Part shown: positions 7,079-19,378 of the stretch, in pieces
Numbering within the stretch: the first letter of the stretch is position 1
Layout: every line of letters starts with the position of its first letter
IMG/VR virus record: IMGVR_UViG_3300015263_001032
Span: 1-20,534 of that record
From: a virus
Reading direction: 5' to 3' (one strand)
DNA: 20,534 nt
Made by a program: the position numbers and the translations under genes
Notes under the pieces: generated by a model
Told to the model about the DNA's origin: nothing
Seen by the model: the letters and a program-made list of their open reading frames with translations, nothing else
Database searches by the model: none

Positions 7079-7267
7079 TTAATAAACTGCATTAATATCC
7101 ATTGGATCAAAACTTGGCGCAATTGGGTCTTGATCTCCAAGTATTTTTCCTGCTTTTGGATTCGGTTCATATAAATTAATTTGCCACATAACGATTTTTG
7201 CAATTGGTTCTTTCAACCACTGTTTATCGTAAAATAAAATTTCTGTTATAGTTTCATCTGTATTCAT
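7079..7267 (-). CDS. small acidic protein of unknown function (62 aa)
   Basis: Not recognised. The sequence MNTDETITEILFYDKQWLKEPIAKIVMWQINLYEPNPKAG... is acidic, with a hydrophobic middle and a Pro/Asp-rich C-terminus (DQDPIAPSFDPMDINAVY). It lies between the 409-aa gene (12-bp gap) and the helicase (15-bp gap). An AGAAGGTCTCAATATG ribosome site precedes the ATG. Support is position, codon use and ribosome site only. Confidence 0.55.
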   Translation of the reverse strand: MNTDETITEILFYDKQWLKEPIAKIVMWQINLYEPNPKAGKILGDQDPIAPSFDPMDINAVY

Positions 7268-7279
7268 ATTGAGACCTTC

Positions 7280-8539: not shown

Positions 8540-8707
8540 TTAATTAGGTTTAATATTATTTAATTTAATTAATACAAATAAATTTAAAATCTCAGAAGTT
8601 TTAATTTTACGTTTATTTCCATTTGGGTAAATGATAAATCCCGAAAACGAATCACTCTCGAATTCAAAATAAATATTTAAATCTTTCAAATAATATTTAG
8701 TTTTCAT
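8540..8707 (-). CDS. first gene of the leftward operon, 55-aa protein of unknown function
   Basis: A short frame (MKTKYYLKDLNIYFEFESDS...LIKLNNIKPN) lies between the leftward promoter and the 409-aa gene. It is Lys/Asn/Ile-rich with a beta-rich first half and a hydrophobic helix near residues 38-50. A GAGGTG sequence lies about 11 nt before the ATG, a little far for a ribosome site. Its position about 50 bp downstream of a good promoter makes it the first early product; there is no family match. Confidence 0.5.
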   Translation of the reverse strand: MKTKYYLKDLNIYFEFESDSFSGFIIYPNGNKRKIKTSEILNLFVLIKLNNIKPN

Positions 8708-8762
8708 ATTATTTTTAGCACCTCGGTTTAGTTAATCAAATTAGTATTTCTAGCAACCGCGT

Positions 8763-8791
8763 ATCCTACCACACTTTAAGAACAATGTCAA
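8763..8791 (-). promoter_or_regulatory. leftward early promoter
   Basis: On the minus strand: TTGACA (8786-8791), a 17-bp spacer, TAGGAT (8763-8768). It points at the 55-aa gene and the whole left block. The -35 box is perfect; the -10 box matches 4 of 6. Confidence 0.8.
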
Positions 8792-8874
8792 GCATTATTT
8801 TCAACTTTATTTTAGAGCTGACTATTTATAGCTATTTCAAAATTGATGCAAATAAATAACATTCATAACATAAC

Positions 8875-8926
8875 TTTCATAACAATAACCTAACGCTAAC
8901 ATAACAATAACCTAACAATAACAACC
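8875..8926 (+). repeat. left iteron block (two 17-bp direct repeats, 22-bp period)
   Basis: CATAACAATAACCTAAC occurs exactly at 8878-8894 and again at 8900-8916, 22 bp apart (two helical turns), followed by a partial third unit AATAACAACC. Related CATAAC units precede it at 8864-8874. It is a likely protein-binding array. Confidence 0.85.
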
Positions 8927-8952
8927 AATTTCAGACCGCCCCTAGGTTGTTA
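8919..8952. repeat. 8-bp inverted repeat at the inner edge of the left iterons
   Basis: TAACAACC (8919-8926) and GGTTGTTA (8945-8952) are exact reverse complements with an 18-nt gap that includes the GC-rich CCGCCCC. It could be an operator or a hairpin. Confidence 0.7.
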
Positions 8953-9087
8953 CTAATAATCCTAATCGATCTCTTTTTCATTCCAATTTATATTTCTTTT
9001 TCACATTCTATTTTTAAATCTCTTTTTGAGAGAGCTATTCCAATATACCGTCAAAAAAATTTGTTATTTTGTTCATAGGGTATTATC

Positions 9088-9158
9088 TATTTGTCCATTT
9101 GGGATAGAACTATTATTATTTGGGCTAATCCATTTGGAATATAATTTGGGGACAAATA
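9088..9158. repeat. 9-bp inverted repeat with internal direct repeats
   Basis: TATTTGTCC (9088-9096) is exactly complemented by GGACAAATA (9150-9158). Between them TCCATTTGGGATA (9094-9106) recurs as TCCATTTGGAATA (9129-9141), 35 bp apart. The compact symmetry suggests protein-binding sites in the middle of the control region. Confidence 0.65.
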
Positions 9159-9189
9159 CCAATTAGGAATATTAGTAACAAGGTATGGA

Positions 9190-9202
9190 CGCCCGCCGGG
9201 CG
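9190..9202. other. isolated GC-only palindromic hairpin
   Basis: CGCCCGCCGGGCG forms a 5-bp CGCCC/GGGCG stem with a 3-nt loop in otherwise very AT-rich DNA, directly next to the right iteron arm. No T-run follows on either strand, so it is not a normal terminator. Confidence 0.6.
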
Positions 9203-9242
9203 GCTGTTACTGTTAGGTTACTGTTACGTTATTGTTATGAAA
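9202..9242 (-). repeat. right, inverted copy of the iteron block
   Basis: Read on the minus strand, this segment begins TTTCATAACAATAAC and continues with GTAACAGTAACCTAACAGTAACAGCC. It matches the left block at 8875-8926 with about 11 bp missing and mostly A-to-G differences, so the two blocks form a large imperfect inverted repeat around a 275-bp core. Confidence 0.75.
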
Positions 9243-9256
9243 TGTTTGTGATTTTG

Positions 9257-9298
9257 TTTGTTATTAATTTGTTATTCTTTTGTTATTAATTTGTTATT
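9257..9298 (+). repeat. four TTTGTTATT repeats at 11-bp spacing
   Basis: TTTGTTATT occurs exactly at 9257, 9268, 9279 and 9290, one helical turn apart, separated by AA, CT, AA. As 22-bp units, 20 of 22 bases are identical. The array ends 29 bp before the rightward -35 box. Confidence 0.88.
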
Positions 9299-9306
9299 TA
9301 AAATGC

Positions 9307-9430: not shown

Positions 9431-10168
9431 ATGAACGCACAAGTTGAAAACGTCACTGAAGAAAAAATTACTCTGCAAGATATTGCACGTCGCAGTTTTT
9501 CAGTTGATGAACTAGAGAACGCGCAAAAGTATATCGGTGAAGCTGTTGCAGTTGCGAAAGCTGAGGGAGTAGAGCCGATCTTTAACTTTGATGTAAATGA
9601 AAATTTGCCTGAAGGTTATGGACTAGCTGTTATTCCTTTAACTGAACGTGTTGCAGGACAAGGCAATGTAACAAAAGGTTTGTGTATTGCGGCAGTTCCT
9701 TCTGTTAATACAATTTTAGCTGATGATTCGGGCGAGAGCTGGGTTGTAAAACAAATCACTGATATTTTGGTACGCAATATTAAATCGGCTGCTATGCCTT
9801 CAGACGATGGATCAATAACTTCTATTCCTTTCAAAGTGCAAGATTTTACAACTAGCACAAGATCAAGCGCTTTGGCGGCTTTCAATGCTGTTGCTTCTCT
9901 TTATGTAAAAGCACTGAAAGACAAAGGTTTGAAATTCATGTCAAAAGGTTTACTGCGTCAAGTACTTTCAAGCGCTGCTTTTGCAAAACAACAATTTCCA
10001 CGTATTGGGCAAGATAACTGGTTAGTGGTAATTGGTTCAATGAAAACTCACGCGGCAAAAGAAGGTTTAGATTCTGGTATTTTGTCTCACTGGGAAAATA
10101 CACGCGATCAAGTCGAAGTATCTACAACTGAAATCGATCTTTCAGATATTGACGGAATGGTCGAATAA
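9431..10168 (+). CDS. monocistronic protein with acidic C-terminal tail (245 aa), function unknown
   Basis: Not recognised. It is a soluble, alanine-rich protein: acidic N-terminus, a beta-rich section (about 60-145), a helical basic section (KALKDKGLKFMSKGLLRQVL, about 160-179), and an acidic tail (TTEIDLSDIDGMVE). The tail recalls phage and bacterial single-stranded-DNA-binding proteins, where it recruits partners, but no OB-fold signature can be claimed. The gene has its own promoter (9328-9355), an AAAAGGAATC ribosome site and a strong terminator (10188-10230), so it forms a single-gene unit that is probably strongly expressed. Its location beside the putative origin fits an abundant replication or DNA-coating protein; a regulator or host-takeover protein is equally possible. 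Confidence 0.75.
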   Translation: MNAQVENVTEEKITLQDIARRSFSVDELENAQKYIGEAVAVAKAEGVEPIFNFDVNENLPEGYGLAVIPLTERVAGQGNVTKGLCIAAVPSVNTILADDSGESWVVKQITDILVRNIKSAAMPSDDGSITSIPFKVQDFTTSTRSSALAAFNAVASLYVKALKDKGLKFMSKGLLRQVLSSAAFAKQQFPRIGQDNWLVVIGSMKTHAAKEGLDSGILSHWENTRDQVEVSTTEIDLSDIDGMVE

Positions 10169-10187
10169 CTTTTAAATCTACCTGGAC

Positions 10188-10230
10188 GAAAAGCGGAAAT
10201 TTATAGTTTTACTTTTCCGCTTTTCTTTTT
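10188..10230 (+). terminator. intrinsic terminator of the 245-aa gene
   Basis: GAAAAGCGGAAA (10188-10199) pairs perfectly with TTTCCGCTTTTC (10214-10225), a 12-bp stem with a 14-nt loop, followed directly by five T residues. Confidence 0.9.
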
Positions 10231-10304: not shown

Positions 10305-10565
10305 ATGAATCATTTACCGATTGAAGATCAAAAACGCTTTGCTAAACATTTATCACGGAAATTGCCTAATAATCCGTACACATTTGAAGCTTGGCAAGTT
10401 TCTGAAATTTTGCGAGTTTATGCTAAATCAGCTTGTCGCAGTAGATCGTATTCAGTTTCTAACCAGCAAGATATGATCGATCTACACTCTGATTTAATAT
10501 CGCAGTTTTGTAAGGATAATAAAATCTCTATCATTCCCAGCATTGTAAAAAATCAAGCTTGTTAG
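10305..10565 (+). CDS. monocistronic small basic protein (86 aa), function unknown
   Basis: Not recognised. The protein is mainly helical and basic (RFAKHLSRKLPNNPYTFEAW, RVYAKSACRSRSYSVSNQQ) with no clear helix-turn-helix. It has its own promoter-like sequence, an AAAAGGATT ribosome site and a terminator at 10584-10612, forming a second one-gene unit between the 245-aa gene and the packaging cluster. That isolation suggests separate timing, for example a regulator of late transcription, but nothing in the sequence proves it. Confidence 0.65.
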   Translation: MNHLPIEDQKRFAKHLSRKLPNNPYTFEAWQVSEILRVYAKSACRSRSYSVSNQQDMIDLHSDLISQFCKDNKISIIPSIVKNQAC

Positions 10566-10583
10566 CTGGGATAGAATAATTTG

Positions 10584-10612
10584 ATGGGGGGTACTAGCCC
10601 CCCATTTTTTTT
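10584..10612 (+). terminator. strong GC-rich intrinsic terminator before the packaging cluster
   Basis: ATGGGGGG (10584-10591) pairs with CCCCCCAT (10598-10605) around a TACTAG loop, followed by eight T residues. It isolates the late genes from upstream transcription. Confidence 0.92.
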
Positions 10613-10676
10613 ATGGCCACCCCCCGTATAAATAGTGACACTTAAAAATTTCCTAAAAAATTTGAGAAAAAAAATT

Positions 10677-12999: not shown

Positions 13000-14886
13000 A
13001 TGGCTTTGAAAATAGGGAAGAAATTCCAAGTAAATGAAAATATCACTTTAACAGAAAAAAATCATACAGATTTGTTAAAGCATGTAAAAGAACGTTTGAC
13101 TTTTGCAAAAGATTTACACGATCAGCAAGTTGAAAAATTTAGAAAGATTGATCAAGCTGTTTATGGCTATCTTGTTTTAGATGAAGATGATGAAAAACGC
13201 AGAAAAGATAATGAAAAAGGTTATGGTGTAAAACCTGTTGACACAATTTTACCTTTAACTTTGACTCAGCTTGATGAAGCTGTAACTTATATAATTGAAG
13301 TTGTCTCAACAGATTCTGGTTTATATGGTGCAATAGCTCCAGCTGAAAAGAAAAAAATCGCAGATGGATTTGCTTCATTAATGAATGAACATGCAGATAG
13401 ATTTAAACATTTGCGTGATATGAATAAATTCCTATTCAATGCAATGAAATACAATTGGGCTGCGTTAAGTCCAAGTTGGAAAATCGTAAAAGGTAATAAA
13501 ATTGAAAACGCTGTAACTGATACTCCAAATATAAAAGAAAATGTAGTAGTTTATCAGGGAAATGAATTACATTCATTAGACCCATACAATACTTATTATG
13601 ATGTTTCTGTAAGCCCAATTGATTTGGCCGCTGAAGGTGAATTCTTTGCAGAAGCAGATGTTGTTACACCTTTTAAAGCAAGAAAATTACTTGCAAACGA
13701 AGAAATCTATAATGCAAAAGACATTATTGACAAAGGCGGGTATGCAATTAATTGGTATACGGATAAACCAAATATTGATACAAGTTCTGAAAATGCAATT
13801 TCTTCGAATTTTCTTCAGCTACTTGGTGGAGATAATACAGAAAGAACTTCAACACAGGCGATAGAAATTGTAAAACTATACATGTGGTTGAATACAAAAG
13901 ATTACGGAATTTCTAAAGAAGATGAAATGAAAATCTGCCGTTTATCATTGATGAACAATGAAAGAATTGTTCGTTTAGAAATTATGAATAATGCTCATGG
14001 CTTATTACCAATTGGCGTAACAATGCCGTGGGAAGATGGTTTTAAAGAAGCAACAAAATCTTATGCACAATTATTAAATCCCTTCCAATTATTTGCTTCC
14101 TCGCAAATGAATGTACATCAAAAATCAAATAGAAAAGCTCTTTATGGTGTAACATTCTATAACAAAAATGTTTTAAACTTGGGTGATGAATATGACCCGG
14201 TTGCATCAAAAGTGCCTGTAAATGCACAACCAGATTCTGATATTAGAAAAGCAATTCATCAAGTTTTTGATGCACCAAGAACCGAAAACACAATTCGTGA
14301 TATCAGCACGATTACCGATTTCATGCAAAGAATTCTGCCGACTGATATTTTAAATCAAGTTGCTGGATTGGAAAGAGCAACTCAATATCAATCTGCCGCA
14401 ACAGTTCAAGGTGCAAATCGCAGAAATTTGAAAATCGCACGCATGATCGATATTCAAGCTTTATCTCATGTTCGACAAATTCAGCTTTTCAATATAATGC
14501 AATATCAAGAACAAGTTGAAATCATTTCTCCAGAAGGTGAATTAATCAATATTGTACCTGCAGATTTCAGAGAAACTAAAATTGAATTTGCTGTTTCAGA
14601 AGGTTTGCGTGGATTAGATAGACTTTCTATGTCTATAGCAATTCAAGATGTTCTTAATTCAATTCTACAATCTCAACAAGCCAGTTTGCAAATTGATGTT
14701 GTAGCTTTAATCAATTATTGGACTTCTTTTATTGGTGACAAAACAGATTTCTCTCAGTTTAAATACAAATCTGAAATGGATAAACTGCCACCAGAACAGC
14801 GGGATATGGCTTTTCAAGTATTTCAACAATTTCTTGCTGCACAAGAAGCACAAAAAAACGGCGAAACAACTGTAACTTCAGCTTAA
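13000..14886 (+). CDS. portal (head-tail connector) protein (628 aa)
   Basis: Position directly after the large terminase, the size, and the composition (long helical segments, NPFQLFASSQ, then a helical stretch TDFMQRILPTDILNQVAGLERATQYQSAATVQGANRRNLKIARMID) fit a portal protein. The helix-rich segment 470-550 matches the stem/wing region of portals of podovirus-like phages. It forms the dodecameric ring for DNA entry and exit. No specific portal subfamily can be named from sequence alone. The ribosome site is CTGGAG, 9 nt before the ATG. The C-terminus is Gln/Ala-rich and probably flexible. Confidence 0.82.
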   Translation: MALKIGKKFQVNENITLTEKNHTDLLKHVKERLTFAKDLHDQQVEKFRKIDQAVYGYLVLDEDDEKRRKDNEKGYGVKPVDTILPLTLTQLDEAVTYIIEVVSTDSGLYGAIAPAEKKKIADGFASLMNEHADRFKHLRDMNKFLFNAMKYNWAALSPSWKIVKGNKIENAVTDTPNIKENVVVYQGNELHSLDPYNTYYDVSVSPIDLAAEGEFFAEADVVTPFKARKLLANEEIYNAKDIIDKGGYAINWYTDKPNIDTSSENAISSNFLQLLGGDNTERTSTQAIEIVKLYMWLNTKDYGISKEDEMKICRLSLMNNERIVRLEIMNNAHGLLPIGVTMPWEDGFKEATKSYAQLLNPFQLFASSQMNVHQKSNRKALYGVTFYNKNVLNLGDEYDPVASKVPVNAQPDSDIRKAIHQVFDAPRTENTIRDISTITDFMQRILPTDILNQVAGLERATQYQSAATVQGANRRNLKIARMIDIQALSHVRQIQLFNIMQYQEQVEIISPEGELINIVPADFRETKIEFAVSEGLRGLDRLSMSIAIQDVLNSILQSQQASLQIDVVALINYWTSFIGDKTDFSQFKYKSEMDKLPPEQRDMAFQVFQQFLAAQEAQKNGETTVTSA

Positions 14887-14917: not shown

Positions 14918-15388
14918 ATGCTAGGTTTATTCAGTGTTTTGGGAAATATGTTTGGAACAAAAGAAGCTGGTGCTACTGTTTTACAAAGTGTAACTGATGG
15001 AGTTGACAAACTTTGGCACACAGACGAAGAAAAAGCTGAAGAAGCTGCAAAAGCTCGAACGGAAGGATTTGCAGTTTATATGGAATGGTTGAAATCAACT
15101 TCTGGTTCCAGAATTGCAAGAAGAGTTATCGCATTTATGGTTACTGGGATTTGGGCATTTGAACATTTAACTTCAGTTTTCTTTGGTTTACTTGGCGTTT
15201 TTGCAGATGATCCAAAACAATTTCTTGAAGCCAGTGATATGTTTGCTAGACATGCAAATGAAAACAATGCGCTTGTTGGTGTTGTTTTATTATTTTACTT
15301 TGGCGGCCCAGCAGCAATTGATGGTGTAAAAGGTTTAGTTGAAAAATGGACTAATAAATCTAACAACAAAGCGGATGGAGTTAAATAA
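14918..15388 (+). CDS. 3-TM GTA-type holin-like membrane protein (156 aa)
   Basis: The motif series DGVDKLWHTDEEKAEEA (27-43), a helix with YMEWLKS (54-60), and GSRIARRVIAF (63-73) followed by hydrophobic segments at about 69-95 and 117-135 matches the GTA_holin_3TM family (Phage holin of three transmembranes). These proteins are predicted to permeabilise the inner membrane for lysis or particle release. A lysis gene between portal and scaffold is an unusual place, and no endolysin is seen in the window. The ribosome site is AAGAGGAGAAACTTC-ATG. Membrane topology is inferred from hydropathy only. Confidence 0.8.
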   Translation: MLGLFSVLGNMFGTKEAGATVLQSVTDGVDKLWHTDEEKAEEAAKARTEGFAVYMEWLKSTSGSRIARRVIAFMVTGIWAFEHLTSVFFGLLGVFADDPKQFLEASDMFARHANENNALVGVVLLFYFGGPAAIDGVKGLVEKWTNKSNNKADGVK

Positions 15389-15397
15389 AAAAAATTT

Positions 15398-15530
15398 GAC
15401 TAGGGAAGCCCAATGTTAGGCTACTTTGCCACGGGTCTACGGGTTTATGAAGTGGAGCGAGGCACGAGCGAAACGGAATCCCGTTGACCGGCAAAGAGCC
15501 GTAAACATTGATAGGCGAGGGCCCCTTGTC
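15398..15530 (+). ncRNA. compact GC-rich structured RNA between holin and scaffold genes, family unknown
   Basis: A 133-nt element of about 56% GC stands in AT-rich DNA and folds into a long nested hairpin. Helices: GAC-U-AGGG (15398-15405) with CCC-UU-GUC (15523-15530, one U-U mismatch); GCCC (15408-15411) with GGGC (15519-15522); AAUGUU (15412-15417) with AACAUU (15504-15509); GGCU (15419-15422) with AGCC (15497-15500); CUUUGCC (15424-15430) with GGCAAAG (15490-15496); GGUC (15434-15437) with GACC (15486-15489); a tip hairpin AACGG/CCGUU (15472-15485). The loop 15438-15471 is G-rich with ACGGG repeated (15431, 15439), which could form an alternative pairing with CCCGU (15480-15484). There is no open frame across it and no T-run after it. 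Similarity to hammerhead, HDV-like, twister, tRNA or riboswitch consensus was sought and not found. It could be a processed leader, a ribozyme, or a packaging or regulatory RNA. Confidence 0.72.
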
Positions 15531-15559
15531 ATAATTTTATTTTTTAACGAGGAATCAAA

Positions 15560-15796
15560 ATGAGTAATTTTAATAATCTTACAGAGACAGAAAAAGCAAT
15601 TTTACAACAGGTTGCTGCAAATCCTGTTTTTATGAAATTAATTCGAGATCAAAAGGAGGAAATAGAAGAACAAATATTAAATTTTTGGGCGCTTGAAAAT
15701 GAATCTGATAAAGACTACCGGCGACGTCACGAAGCATTGTATGAAAAACGAAGATATTTAACCGAACAAGTACAATTTTACGAAAAACTACTTTAA
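15560..15796 (+). CDS. small coiled-coil protein before scaffold (78 aa)
   Basis: Not recognised. It is highly charged and helical throughout (LTETEKAILQQVAANPVFMK, then KEEIEEQILNFWALENESDKDYRRRHEALYEKRRYL), probably a coiled coil. It lies 18 bp before the scaffold-like gene and 29 bp after the structured RNA. The ribosome site is ACGAGGAATC. Position suggests a head-assembly accessory protein or a product regulated by the RNA upstream; both are inferences. Confidence 0.65.
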   Translation: MSNFNNLTETEKAILQQVAANPVFMKLIRDQKEEIEEQILNFWALENESDKDYRRRHEALYEKRRYLTEQVQFYEKLL

Positions 15797-15814: not shown

Positions 15815-16573
15815 ATGAATGGCGGATTTTTAAGCAAATTTATTGGTGGAAATTCAGTTTCTACAAATAATGAAAATGGTGCTCCTGAAACAAAGAAGTC
15901 AACCAATGGTAACAAAGATAACAACGAAAATAACATTGACAATTCTACCAATATATGGGAGAATCCAGTCAAACAAGATGCAAATGCGAATAATAATCAA
16001 CCGCAACAACAATTTATTCAACAACCTGTTGTAGAACCTGATCCACAAGAAGCTTTACAAAAACATATTGCAAGTTTGAAATTAACTGATGGAATTGATT
16101 TTTCACAAATTCAGCAAGATTTACAAACTGGTAGTACAGAATCTTTGACTAAAGCTTTGGAAACAACTGCGGCAAATGCATATAAATCTTCCATGATGCA
16201 AATGAGTAAAATCATGGATAATAAACTTGCTGCTGTTAAACAAGAAGCTTTAAATGAATCTAAAGCTACAATGAATGCAGATTTAGCAGTTCGTCAAATG
16301 AATACAGATTTGCCTTTTACAGCTGATCCTAACATAGCTCCAGTTGCAAAGGCAGTTTTGAATCAATTCATTAAAGGTGGAAAAGATTTACCTTCAGCAA
16401 TTAAAGCAACGGCTGAATTTTTTAAATCTACTGCTTCTAAAATTAATTCAAGCGGTACTCCTCCTGGGAATCAAAACAATTCAAATTTTAGTCAGTATAA
16501 AAATTCTGATAATAATAACAGCAATGAAAACCCTTCGGAACACGATGAGTGGTTGGACTTGTTAAGCGCGTAG
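15815..16573 (+). CDS. scaffold-like (prohead core) protein (252 aa)
   Basis: Assigned by position immediately before the major capsid gene and by composition. Residues 10-75 are Asn/Gln/Lys-rich and disordered, residues 80-215 are helical and charged (ALQKHIASLKL, AANAYKSSMMQMSKIMDNKLAAVKQEALNES), and the C-terminus (SEHDEWLDLLSA) is acidic with a small helix, as in scaffolds that bind the capsid protein through their C-terminus. Scaffolds diverge rapidly, so lack of sequence recognition is expected. It would guide capsid assembly and then leave the prohead; a protease is not seen nearby. The ribosome site is TAGAGGATAAAATT-ATG. Confidence 0.72.
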   Translation: MNGGFLSKFIGGNSVSTNNENGAPETKKSTNGNKDNNENNIDNSTNIWENPVKQDANANNNQPQQQFIQQPVVEPDPQEALQKHIASLKLTDGIDFSQIQQDLQTGSTESLTKALETTAANAYKSSMMQMSKIMDNKLAAVKQEALNESKATMNADLAVRQMNTDLPFTADPNIAPVAKAVLNQFIKGGKDLPSAIKATAEFFKSTASKINSSGTPPGNQNNSNFSQYKNSDNNNSNENPSEHDEWLDLLSA

Positions 16574-16635: not shown

Positions 16636-17802
16636 ATGGCTGTAAAAGGCGTTTTTGCATCTGACCAAAATGTTGCAGGAACAGTTAAGGGTAGTTTTGC
16701 TTCTGCGATTCTTCAACTTTATCCAACTGGTTCTTCACCACTTTTGGCTCTTTCTTCTGGTATGCAATCAGAAGATGAAAAATCTGTTGTAATCACATGG
16801 TTTGAAGAAAATCATTTATCTGGTTATTTGACTGTAACAAATAATGCTGGTACTGGTACTACTTTCACTCTGTCTGATGGTACTCAAGTAGTTGCTGGTA
16901 CTATTATGTTAGTCCATTCAACTGGTGAATATATTTTTGTTGATTCTATCACTGGTAACTCTGCAACTGTGACTCGCGGATTTGCTGGATCAACTGTTAC
17001 TTCAATTAACGGTTCTGTAACTCCAGTGCCAATTCAGCGAATCACCACAGCGCACGAAGAAGGTTCTGCAAAACCAACTTCAATTGCAAATCTGGGATAT
17101 CCACGTTTTAACTACATGCAAATTTTCCGTAATGCATGGGATGCAACTGGAACTGCAAAAGCTGTTGAATATCACACAGGTGATGTTGTTGCGAAAAACA
17201 AACGTGATGCTGGTGTTTTTCATGCTGAAGATATTGAACGTGCTTTGTTATGGGGCAAACAAACAATTGGTGTTCTGAATAATAAACCTTTCCGTACTAT
17301 GGACGGTATTACTAATCAGATTACCACCAATGTTTCTGCAAAAGCTTCAAATACCCCGCACGAAAATATTGACACGTTCCTGCAAACAATTTTTGAACGC
17401 AATATTAAAGGCAAACCAAACGAACGGATTGCTTTTTGTGGAAACACAGTTGTTTCTGTAATTAACAACATTGCGCGTATTGATGGAACAATTAATATTC
17501 AGCCTGGTCAAACTGAATTCGGCATGAAAGTCATGAAATGGATGACTCCTTATGGAGATATTTCATTGATGACTCACCCGCTGATGAATGAAAATCCAGT
17601 TTGGACAAAAGAGCTTTATGTTCTTCACCCCGGTGCCATCAAAATTAAATATCTGCGTCGCACGCATCACGATACCAATGATCGTGACGGAACTCGTGCT
17701 GGTGCTGATGCTGATTTTGGTGTTTACACTACTGAAGCTTCAATTGAATATGGTGCAGAACTGACTGGTGGTATTTACACAGGTATTGATACTGCGGCTT
17801 AA
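16636..17802 (+). CDS. major capsid protein, SU10/DUF5309-type HK97 fold (388 aa)
   Basis: Residues 60-140 show the pattern of the SU10-like capsid family: an insertion of the type GTIMLVHSTGEYIFVDSITG, NSATVTRGFAGSTVTSING, then IQRITTAHEEGSAKP. The family segment WDATGTAKAVEYHTGDVVAKNKRDAGVFHAEDIERALLWGK (about 168-208) follows, then a P-domain helix and a strand-rich C-terminus (YTTEASIEYGAELTGGIYTGI). Known members use the HK97 fold and form the icosahedral shell. It follows the scaffold gene and has an AGAAGAGG ribosome site. Codon use is less AT-biased than the neighbours, fitting high expression. A hairpin that could attenuate transcription overlaps its stop. Confidence 0.88.
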   Translation: MAVKGVFASDQNVAGTVKGSFASAILQLYPTGSSPLLALSSGMQSEDEKSVVITWFEENHLSGYLTVTNNAGTGTTFTLSDGTQVVAGTIMLVHSTGEYIFVDSITGNSATVTRGFAGSTVTSINGSVTPVPIQRITTAHEEGSAKPTSIANLGYPRFNYMQIFRNAWDATGTAKAVEYHTGDVVAKNKRDAGVFHAEDIERALLWGKQTIGVLNNKPFRTMDGITNQITTNVSAKASNTPHENIDTFLQTIFERNIKGKPNERIAFCGNTVVSVINNIARIDGTINIQPGQTEFGMKVMKWMTPYGDISLMTHPLMNENPVWTKELYVLHPGAIKIKYLRRTHHDTNDRDGTRAGADADFGVYTTEASIEYGAELTGGIYTGIDTAA

Positions 17803-18097: not shown

Positions 18098-18127
18098 TTT
18101 AATATAGTTTAATACAATATAAAACTC

Positions 18128-18155
18128 AAAGGGTGGGATATTTTTCCCACCCTTT
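18128..18155. other. 11-bp stem-loop without T-run between head genes
   Basis: AAAGGGTGGGA (18128-18138) pairs with TCCCACCCTTT (18145-18155) around TATTTT. On neither strand does a T-run follow, so it is not a classic terminator. It may pause polymerase, protect the capsid mRNA 3' end, or be a processing site. Confidence 0.6.
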
Positions 18156-18174
18156 AATATAAAAGGAATCTATT

Positions 18175-18654: not shown

Positions 18655-19378
18655 ATGTCTGAAATTAATACGTTTTCTGCTGCGGTTGACGATATAATTA
18701 CACGTTCTGGGCGTCCGGATAGAAAAGCTGATATTATTGCTTTTGTTCGGACGTCCATTCGTGAATGTCAAGTTCGCGCTTTTTTCAAACGAGATATGAC
18801 AGAGGATAGTTTAACTACGGATGCAAAACCATACATCTGGGAAACTCCTCAAGAATTCAGAATTATTCGCACAGTTAAATACCCAATTTTAAGTTTGCGT
18901 AATAAAGAAATTTATCCACCAGAAGTTCTTCCTGGAAAATTACAAAGAGACCATGAACATTATTATTATGGTGGTCCTGGTTATTATGCTTTTGCGAGAC
19001 CATGAACATTATTATTATGGTGGTCCTGGTTATTATGCTTTTGCTGGATTAGATTCAGGTTCTTCTATTGATATTGCTTATTATTCTTTTTTAAGAAAAC
19101 TTCCCTACTATGCTGTTGCTGACAGACCTGCAACTTTTAGTTTAGAAGACAATGCTTGGGCTTATTTAACTGCATCTACTGATGCTGAAAAATTAATAGC
19201 GCGTGAAGCAGTTTCAAATTGGCTTTTATTTGATTATTATGACACTGTTGTTGAAGGTGGATTAGCAAAAGTTTTAAAAGTTGTTGGTGATGAACGTGCA
19301 ACTGCTACATATGCACTTTATAAATCATATCAAAATGATTTAGTAGCAGCAGAACCTTCTGATTCATTAAATAAATAA
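18655..19378 (+). pseudogene. adaptor (head-tail connector)-like gene split by a 49-bp duplication
   Basis: Two overlapping frames belong to one gene. The first frame (from 18655) reads MSEINTFSAAVDDIITRSGR... to YYAFARP and stops at 19003-19005. The second (to 19378) continues YYAFAGLDSGSSIDIAYYSF... to SDSLNK. The break is at a direct 49-bp repeat (18947-19044); with one copy the frame is continuous, giving 224 residues. Such proteins with an N-terminal helical bundle and later beta-strands resemble SU10-type adaptor proteins that join portal to tail; position after the head genes supports this. As written the gene yields a truncated 116-aa product. A +1 shift or loss of one copy would restore it. 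An assembly artefact is quite possible. Confidence 0.7.
18947..19044 (+). repeat. perfect tandem duplication, 2 x 49 bp
   Basis: GAGACCATGAACATTATTAT and the following 29 bp occur twice without mismatch or spacer (18947-18995 and 18996-19044). The period of 49 is not a multiple of three, so it breaks the adaptor gene. Sequences outside the copies differ at once. Confidence 0.95.

Follow-up and report, generated by a model that had tools for sequence, protein, structure and literature searches.

Among the structured RNAs described from phage transcripts, the RNase III processing hairpins of T7 are intercistronic, lie on the sense strand, have a long closing helix, and sit between gene blocks needed in different amounts. 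The element described here shares all of these properties. T7 sites are shorter and simple; unlike in these, the internal loops, bulges and apical region of the present RNA are conserved. The put RNAs of HK022, which function in antitermination, are also structured phage RNAs within an operon; put sites lie at operon starts and form two hairpins in about 70 nt. Some of the GOLLD and ROOL RNAs are phage-linked, but these comprise several hundred bases, as against 105-170 nt for the RNA discussed here. Like the pRNA of phi29, the element is a small structured RNA of a phage that retains its shape as its letters change; unlike pRNA, it occurs alongside an ordinary terminase large subunit, and in its main fold a single interrupted hairpin takes the place of the three-way junction. 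It has no Rfam match, which also sets it apart from put, pRNA, GOLLD and ROOL. To our knowledge, structured RNAs with real covariation have rarely been described in the late operons of lytic phages. GOLLD and ROOL are presented as orphan structured RNAs found by comparison (PMC12286853), and the phi29 phage group has been reviewed (PMC11476376).

The window analysed here is a viral record of 20.5 kb (20,534 nt) from a phage whose late operon contains, in this order, a terminase gene, the portal gene (13000..14886; PHROG 15554), a holin-type gene (14918..15388; PHROG 9646), a 78-aa gene (p78; 15560..15796), a scaffold-position gene (15815..16573) and the gene for the major head protein (16636..17802; PHROG 1328), the last five all on the plus strand. 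In relatives, the homologues of p78 are likewise found between portal and scaffold genes. The sequence-only reading had placed a 133-nt element of 56% GC in AT-rich surroundings, between the holin-type gene and the 78-aa/scaffold genes. Both points are confirmed: positions 15398-15530, on the sense strand of the late transcript, have a GC content of 0.56, compared with 0.28-0.41 in the surrounding DNA, and the open reading frames together with PHROG 9646 bear out the location. The element takes up the gap that separates the stop codon of the holin-type gene from the p78 ribosome-binding site.

The predicted folding energy of the 133-nt element is −51.1 kcal/mol (z −3.4). Adding an AU-rich closing helix (15380-15396 with 15532-15548) improves the fold to −59.6 (z −4.85), and the feature is therefore longer than first proposed: 15398-15530 holds as the core, whereas the whole hairpin (15380..15548, plus strand) extends from the region of the holin stop codon to just before the p78 ribosome-binding site. 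It coincides with an inverted repeat (I1, 26 nt, 81%). Folding energy was rejected as proof of an RNA, since the element comes only 9th among the 510 windows of a sliding scan, and good folding is seen for the opposite strand as well. With an energy unremarkable for this genome and the strand unsettled by folding, comparison with relatives was relied on, and covariation is decisive.

A capsid search of IMG/VR yielded ten relatives. One sister record carries an element identical to that of the window. In L007, the element occupies the same place and its DNA core is 83% identical to the window's; at fourfold sites, the portal, holin, scaffold and head-protein genes of the two phages are 54-65% identical, and the 78-aa gene, with only 12 such sites, is 17% identical. 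Two further copies are very divergent, and yet lie at the same junction, where lysis genes give way to the p78-scaffold-capsid genes. The first (L037:3760-3870; GACAAGGG...GGGCCCCTTGTC) is located between a holin-position gene from a different family (PHROG 1544) and a homologue of the 78-aa gene, at the other end of a 44.8-kb record that is a relative of L003. The second, in L083 (from a portal search), is found at 8707-8846, downstream of an endolysin-type gene, a small gene and a holin-like gene. Both were located by synteny, independently of any covariance model. A covariance model built from the window and L007 only finds both divergent copies, at 82 bits (E 1e-18) and 35 bits (E 3e-6), the E-values of this and the other covariance models being rough; in 454 kb, it gives no further matches.

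In the four-sequence alignment of the window, L007, L083 and L037, which was fitted to the model structure, 97.7% of cells pair, and 12 of the 34 pairs show changes on both sides, where shuffles give 3.5 and slid controls 0-3. A second alignment was made by hand and checked letter for letter against the loci. As its helices were chosen from folds, it favours pairing, and the informative part consists of the double changes. Compensated pairs occur in P2, P3 and P4c; in P1, one U-U mismatch apart, and in P4a, the sequence itself is kept. Even between the window and L007, three adjacent pairs of P3 differ on both sides with pairing retained. In the portal tree, the four phages form one supported group, within which the divergence of the element follows the tree. 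The compensatory changes looked for in relatives with the same gene order are thus present, and, together with the lack of an Rfam match, they give strong support to the proposal of a functional structured RNA outside the catalogued families. The element is almost certainly a feature that is under selection at the RNA level.

The closing helix P0 pairs an A-rich 5' strand (15380..15396), which overlaps the holin stop codon (15386-15388), with a U-rich 3' strand (15532..15548); it is defined by the inverted repeat and the fold. P0 is kept in L007, and L083 has a helix of other sequence in its place, with a fold z of −8.4 including P0 and −5.3 without it. P1 (UGACUAGGG, 15397..15405) pairs with 15523-15531; its pairs are identical in the four homologues, except for the U-U mismatch in the window and L007, and covary in L107/L103. 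The short P2 (15408..15410 with 15514-15516) shows compensatory changes, as does P3 (15411..15417 with 15504-15510), where the hand layout contains three doubly compensated pairs relative to L007 alone and six over the four sequences. In P4a (GGCU, 15419..15422, with 15497-15500), GGC/GCC is invariant in all four, while P4c (15424..15430 with 15490-15496) is compensated, with one G-U pair in L083. P5 (GGUC U ACGGG, 15434..15443, with 15480-15489) shows compensation in L083, and in L037 a different helix takes its place. P5 is capped by a purine-rich apical loop (15444..15479), whose GGAGCGA motif is kept in L007 and L037. The descending side, as laid out in the four-sequence hand alignment, comprises the 3' strands of P5 (15480..15489) and of P4c and P4a (15490..15500), then the GUA side of an A/GUA internal loop (15501..15503; kept in L007 and L083), followed by the P3 3' strand, an AUA bulge and the P2 3' strand (15504..15516). 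Homologue comparison places a G-rich bulge, GAGGGC, and the P1 3' strand (CCCUUGUCA) at 15517..15531, where GGGCCCC is kept in L007, L083, L037 and L107. The G-rich bulge and the C run of P1 (15517-15531) also contain the palindrome GGGCCC, present in the window group and in L107, which could allow RNA dimers to form.

Two details of the sequence-only reading need qualification. It had seen no open frame; a 24-codon frame does begin at an ATG at 15413, but this frame is broken in L007, absent in L037 and longer in L083, and the element is therefore not coding. It had also described a repeated ACGGG able to choose between two CCCGU pairings. The direct repeat is real (15431 and 15439), but has one CCCGU partner, and the switch built on it is not supported, since the first copy of ACGGG has not been kept in L007, L083 or L037.

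The RNA is not confined to this group. In L107 and L103, more distant portal relatives that were examined through their intergenic gaps, it directly follows the portal gene. A hand layout from the two folds has 34 of 34 pairs kept, 12 of them with changes on both sides; internal loops UUC, GUA/GGA and UAA as well as a GCA triloop are constant between the two. UGAAG-UCGGGCCCC is common to L107 and L037, at the same structural spot. The G-U pairs in L083, L103 and L107, which would turn into A-C mismatches in the opposite strand, favour the sense strand as the one that functions. The first-group model (R2) finds L107 with 18.5 bits (E 0.003, unfiltered, in a 6.5-kb locus). Conversely, the model from L103 and L107 (R3) finds L007 with 21.6 bits (E 0.004 in 455 kb) and also matches L006 weakly at the portal junction, with no other matches in the 455 kb. 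Weak as they are, these cross-matches fall at the expected places and speak for the homology of both groups. Models link only six members, namely the window, L007, L083, L037, L103 and L107.

Strongly folding RNAs are also present at the portal junction of L006 and L101 (z −5.0 and −8.1, respectively). They have the UUGAC...GUCA closing, and are likely homologous to the family. Among cultured phages, the corresponding junction of PaP2, between p09 and p10, is occupied by a long unannotated hairpin (L123:3205-3330; NC_005884.1 about 7144-7269), which is 99-100% conserved in PaP2 and near-identical Pseudomonas phages, 16 records altogether. It resembles the family in its junction, its length, its folding (z −6.3 for a 133-nt stretch) and a G-rich one-sided bulge, GGGGU, next to CCCC. 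Aeromonas phage P5 has a smaller hairpin with a GC-GTA-GC apex at the same junction. Neither R2 nor R3 matches the PaP2-type hairpin or that of Aeromonas phage P5, and both are hence called positional analogues. Searches by BLASTN with the L101, L006 and L107 elements against cultured phages found nothing, and neither did R2 in 274 class-level or R3 in 399 phylum-level bacterial genomes; these genome searches, made under strict filters and with no positive control, carry little weight. Pattern matches in genome contigs were all attributed to chance, none having the set of internal motifs; literature searches found no description of this RNA. Apical GC-GNA-GC mini-hairpins (GCGAAGC, GCGCAGC, GCGTAGC) were seen in L037:3800-3830, L107:5425-5445, L006:3845-3865, L101:3950-3975 and L032:2612-2635, and in L103 in the compensated form GU-GCA-AC.

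Throughout, the RNA keeps to one position, between the portal gene and the scaffold/capsid genes. Its immediate neighbours vary. In the window, L007, L083 and L037, it lies just 5' of the ribosome-binding site of p78, and in L103 and L107 it is followed by a lysis-region gene rather than p78; upstream, the neighbour is the PHROG 9646 holin-type gene, a PHROG 1544 gene or the portal gene. Lysis genes precede the RNA in the first four phages, come after it in L103 and L107, and are nowhere near it in L006 and L101. A link to the lysis cassette was dropped, because in L103 and L107 the RNA comes before the lysis genes rather than after them. Since the neighbours differ on both sides, the RNA is not the leader of one gene; a gene-specific riboswitch or leader would have the same downstream gene in all members, whereas p78 and the lysis-region gene alternate here. 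The idea of a spacer or switch specific to holin and capsid is too narrow for the same variation in adjoining genes.

The clearest information on dispensability comes from L106 and L107, which are 80-85% identical on both flanks of the RNA site. In L107, the portal stop codon is separated from the following ribosome-binding site by 137 extra nt, made up of the RNA and flanking A and U tracts. L106 joins the region of the portal stop codon directly to the next ribosome-binding site, without exactly these 137 nt, and neither model finds a copy anywhere in the 49-kb L106 record. This makes the element accessory. In the portal tree, presence and absence require five changes, at least four of which are forced by well-supported branches. 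Many relatives are without the element, and wherever it was found, it occupies a single site per record in all records searched. Judged on these genome comparisons, the element is an accessory structured RNA in the late (head) transcript. A pRNA-like component would be present wherever its packaging motor is; L106 has portal and terminase like those of L107, and the earlier suggestion of an essential packaging RNA is disfavoured by its lacking the RNA despite a nearly identical terminase-portal region.

No known RNA family or kind of phage RNA passed all its membership tests. Among 4227 Rfam families, none matches the window at gathering threshold, leaving the novelty of the element intact; the best sub-threshold score within it is 16.3 bits against a threshold of 70, and the homologues are likewise below threshold. 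ARAGORN gave no tRNA or tmRNA match. Several partial resemblances were discarded: to the snoRNA sR16 (a sub-threshold Rfam score, due to chance); to integron attC sites (GTTRRRY at the left end, but with wrong orientation and partner); and to group II domain V (GAGCCGUA, without the following hairpin or an Rfam match). A promoter in the conserved TTGAC[A/T] lacks a conserved −10 at proper spacing, and another, TTGATA/CATAAT at 15508-15535, is not retained in L083 or L037. A search for a T7-type RNA polymerase, made with no positive control, was empty. Nothing supports a guide RNA. In being an intercistronic sense-strand hairpin in a phage operon, the element resembles a T7-type RNase III site, and it has basal helices (P0 and P1) in which such an enzyme might cut.

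The simplest mechanism, given the constant position, the self-contained closing helices and the specific internal loops, is a boundary element of the late mRNA that is processed or bound by a protein; this is our preferred reading, held tentatively. The hairpin, which is long, interrupted and closed by a helix of an A-rich and a U-rich strand, is conserved in structure across divergent phages. Such an RNA would fold as soon as it is transcribed, and its basal helices would be bound or cut by an RNase III-like enzyme or another protein. The portal/lysis message would thereby be split from the scaffold-capsid message, the latter gaining a stable structured 5' end, and the output of scaffold and capsid would be raised relative to portal and lysis proteins. 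The changing neighbours, the absence from L106 and the unconserved repeat disfavour a one-gene leader, an essential packaging RNA and an ACGGG switch. A plain processing site, on the other hand, needs no conserved internal loops, bulges or apical motifs; these suggest a specific partner or a role in trans, and the constancy of position may reflect inheritance rather than need. Close behind the boundary element, and itself doubtful, is a trans-acting accessory RNA (an 'RNA moron'), in which the hairpin would be freed from the late transcript and act at another place, for instance bound to a host protein or RNA, serving as a decoy or taking part in particle assembly. It would suit the conservation of internal loops and apical motifs beyond base pairing, the differing neighbours on both sides, the clean presence/absence between L107 and L106, and the patchy occurrence on the portal tree. 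It is harder to reconcile with there being no sign of an own promoter, the nearby site not being conserved, and with the single operon position among the records searched. An extended form, somewhat less probable again, would have a fast-evolving class of accessory RNA between the portal and scaffold genes of a wide podovirus-like group, possibly including PaP2, with a UUGAC...GUCAA closing helix, conserved loops, and a late role in trans as the RNA counterpart of protein 'morons'.

The remaining explanations are all improbable to different degrees. A head or lysis protein might bind the hairpin as an operator and control translation of the next gene; the location directly upstream of the p78 ribosome-binding site in four phages fits this, but the next gene in L103/L107 is a lysis-region gene and the ribosome-binding sites lie outside the structure, so that we consider an operator unlikely. 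Distinctly less likely is that an unusually large hairpin serves here as a transcription terminator or attenuator. Most members have an A-rich tract before and a U-rich tract after the RNA, with U5-U6 in L103, L107 and L006; in the window, however, the U-rich tract is broken and displaced by several bases from the GC-rich stem, and L037 has almost none. Termination here would reduce capsid expression, hairpins with proper tails exist elsewhere in the window (10583-10606 and 18126-18157), and the conserved loops would be left unexplained. The exact 137-nt presence/absence with intact flanks, along with the patchy distribution, might also reflect a small mobile or selfish element, but a deletion accounts for L106 equally well, and divergence within the window group follows the portal tree. 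A MITE-like element would have copies at several sites; here, there is one copy per genome at one site, and none elsewhere in viral contigs (by pattern) or sampled bacterial genomes, which makes mobility very improbable. Least credible is a self-cleaving ribozyme of a new class: the fold is compact and conserved with invariant unpaired bases, but matches no Rfam ribozyme family and has no recognisable cleavage motif.

The pair L107, with the RNA, and L106, without it, amounts to a built-in natural experiment. A defined fold with divergent homologues reveals the invariant parts, making the role directly testable; if PaP2-type phages carry a true relative, this could be done in a culturable phage.

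Other structures were seen in the window. A strong intrinsic-terminator-like site, GATGGGGGGTACTAGCCCCCCATT followed by a T run, lies at 10583-10606 between open reading frames ending at 10565 and starting at 10635, probably before the late operon proper; L086, L095 and L111 have similar G-run/C-run hairpins upstream of their portal regions. At 18126-18157, a 13-pair hairpin (AAAGGGTGGGA/TCCCACCCTTT) follows the small gene after the head protein, and L005, L008 and L098 have comparable hairpins after the capsid gene. A further hairpin, GAAAAGCGGAAA...TTTCCGCTTTTC, is located at 10187-10225, after an open reading frame ending at 10168. The segment 4580-4720 folds strongly on both strands (z −5.2 and −4.2) and overlaps small minus-strand open reading frames. 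An AT-rich divergent region at the early/late gene boundary (8840-9300) contains repeated CATAACAATAACCTAAC and TTTGTTATT units and is possibly an origin or regulatory region. Finally, a repeated RDHEHYYYGGPGYYAFA segment at 18953-19025 is common to two overlapping open reading frames, suggesting a small tandem duplication or an assembly error.
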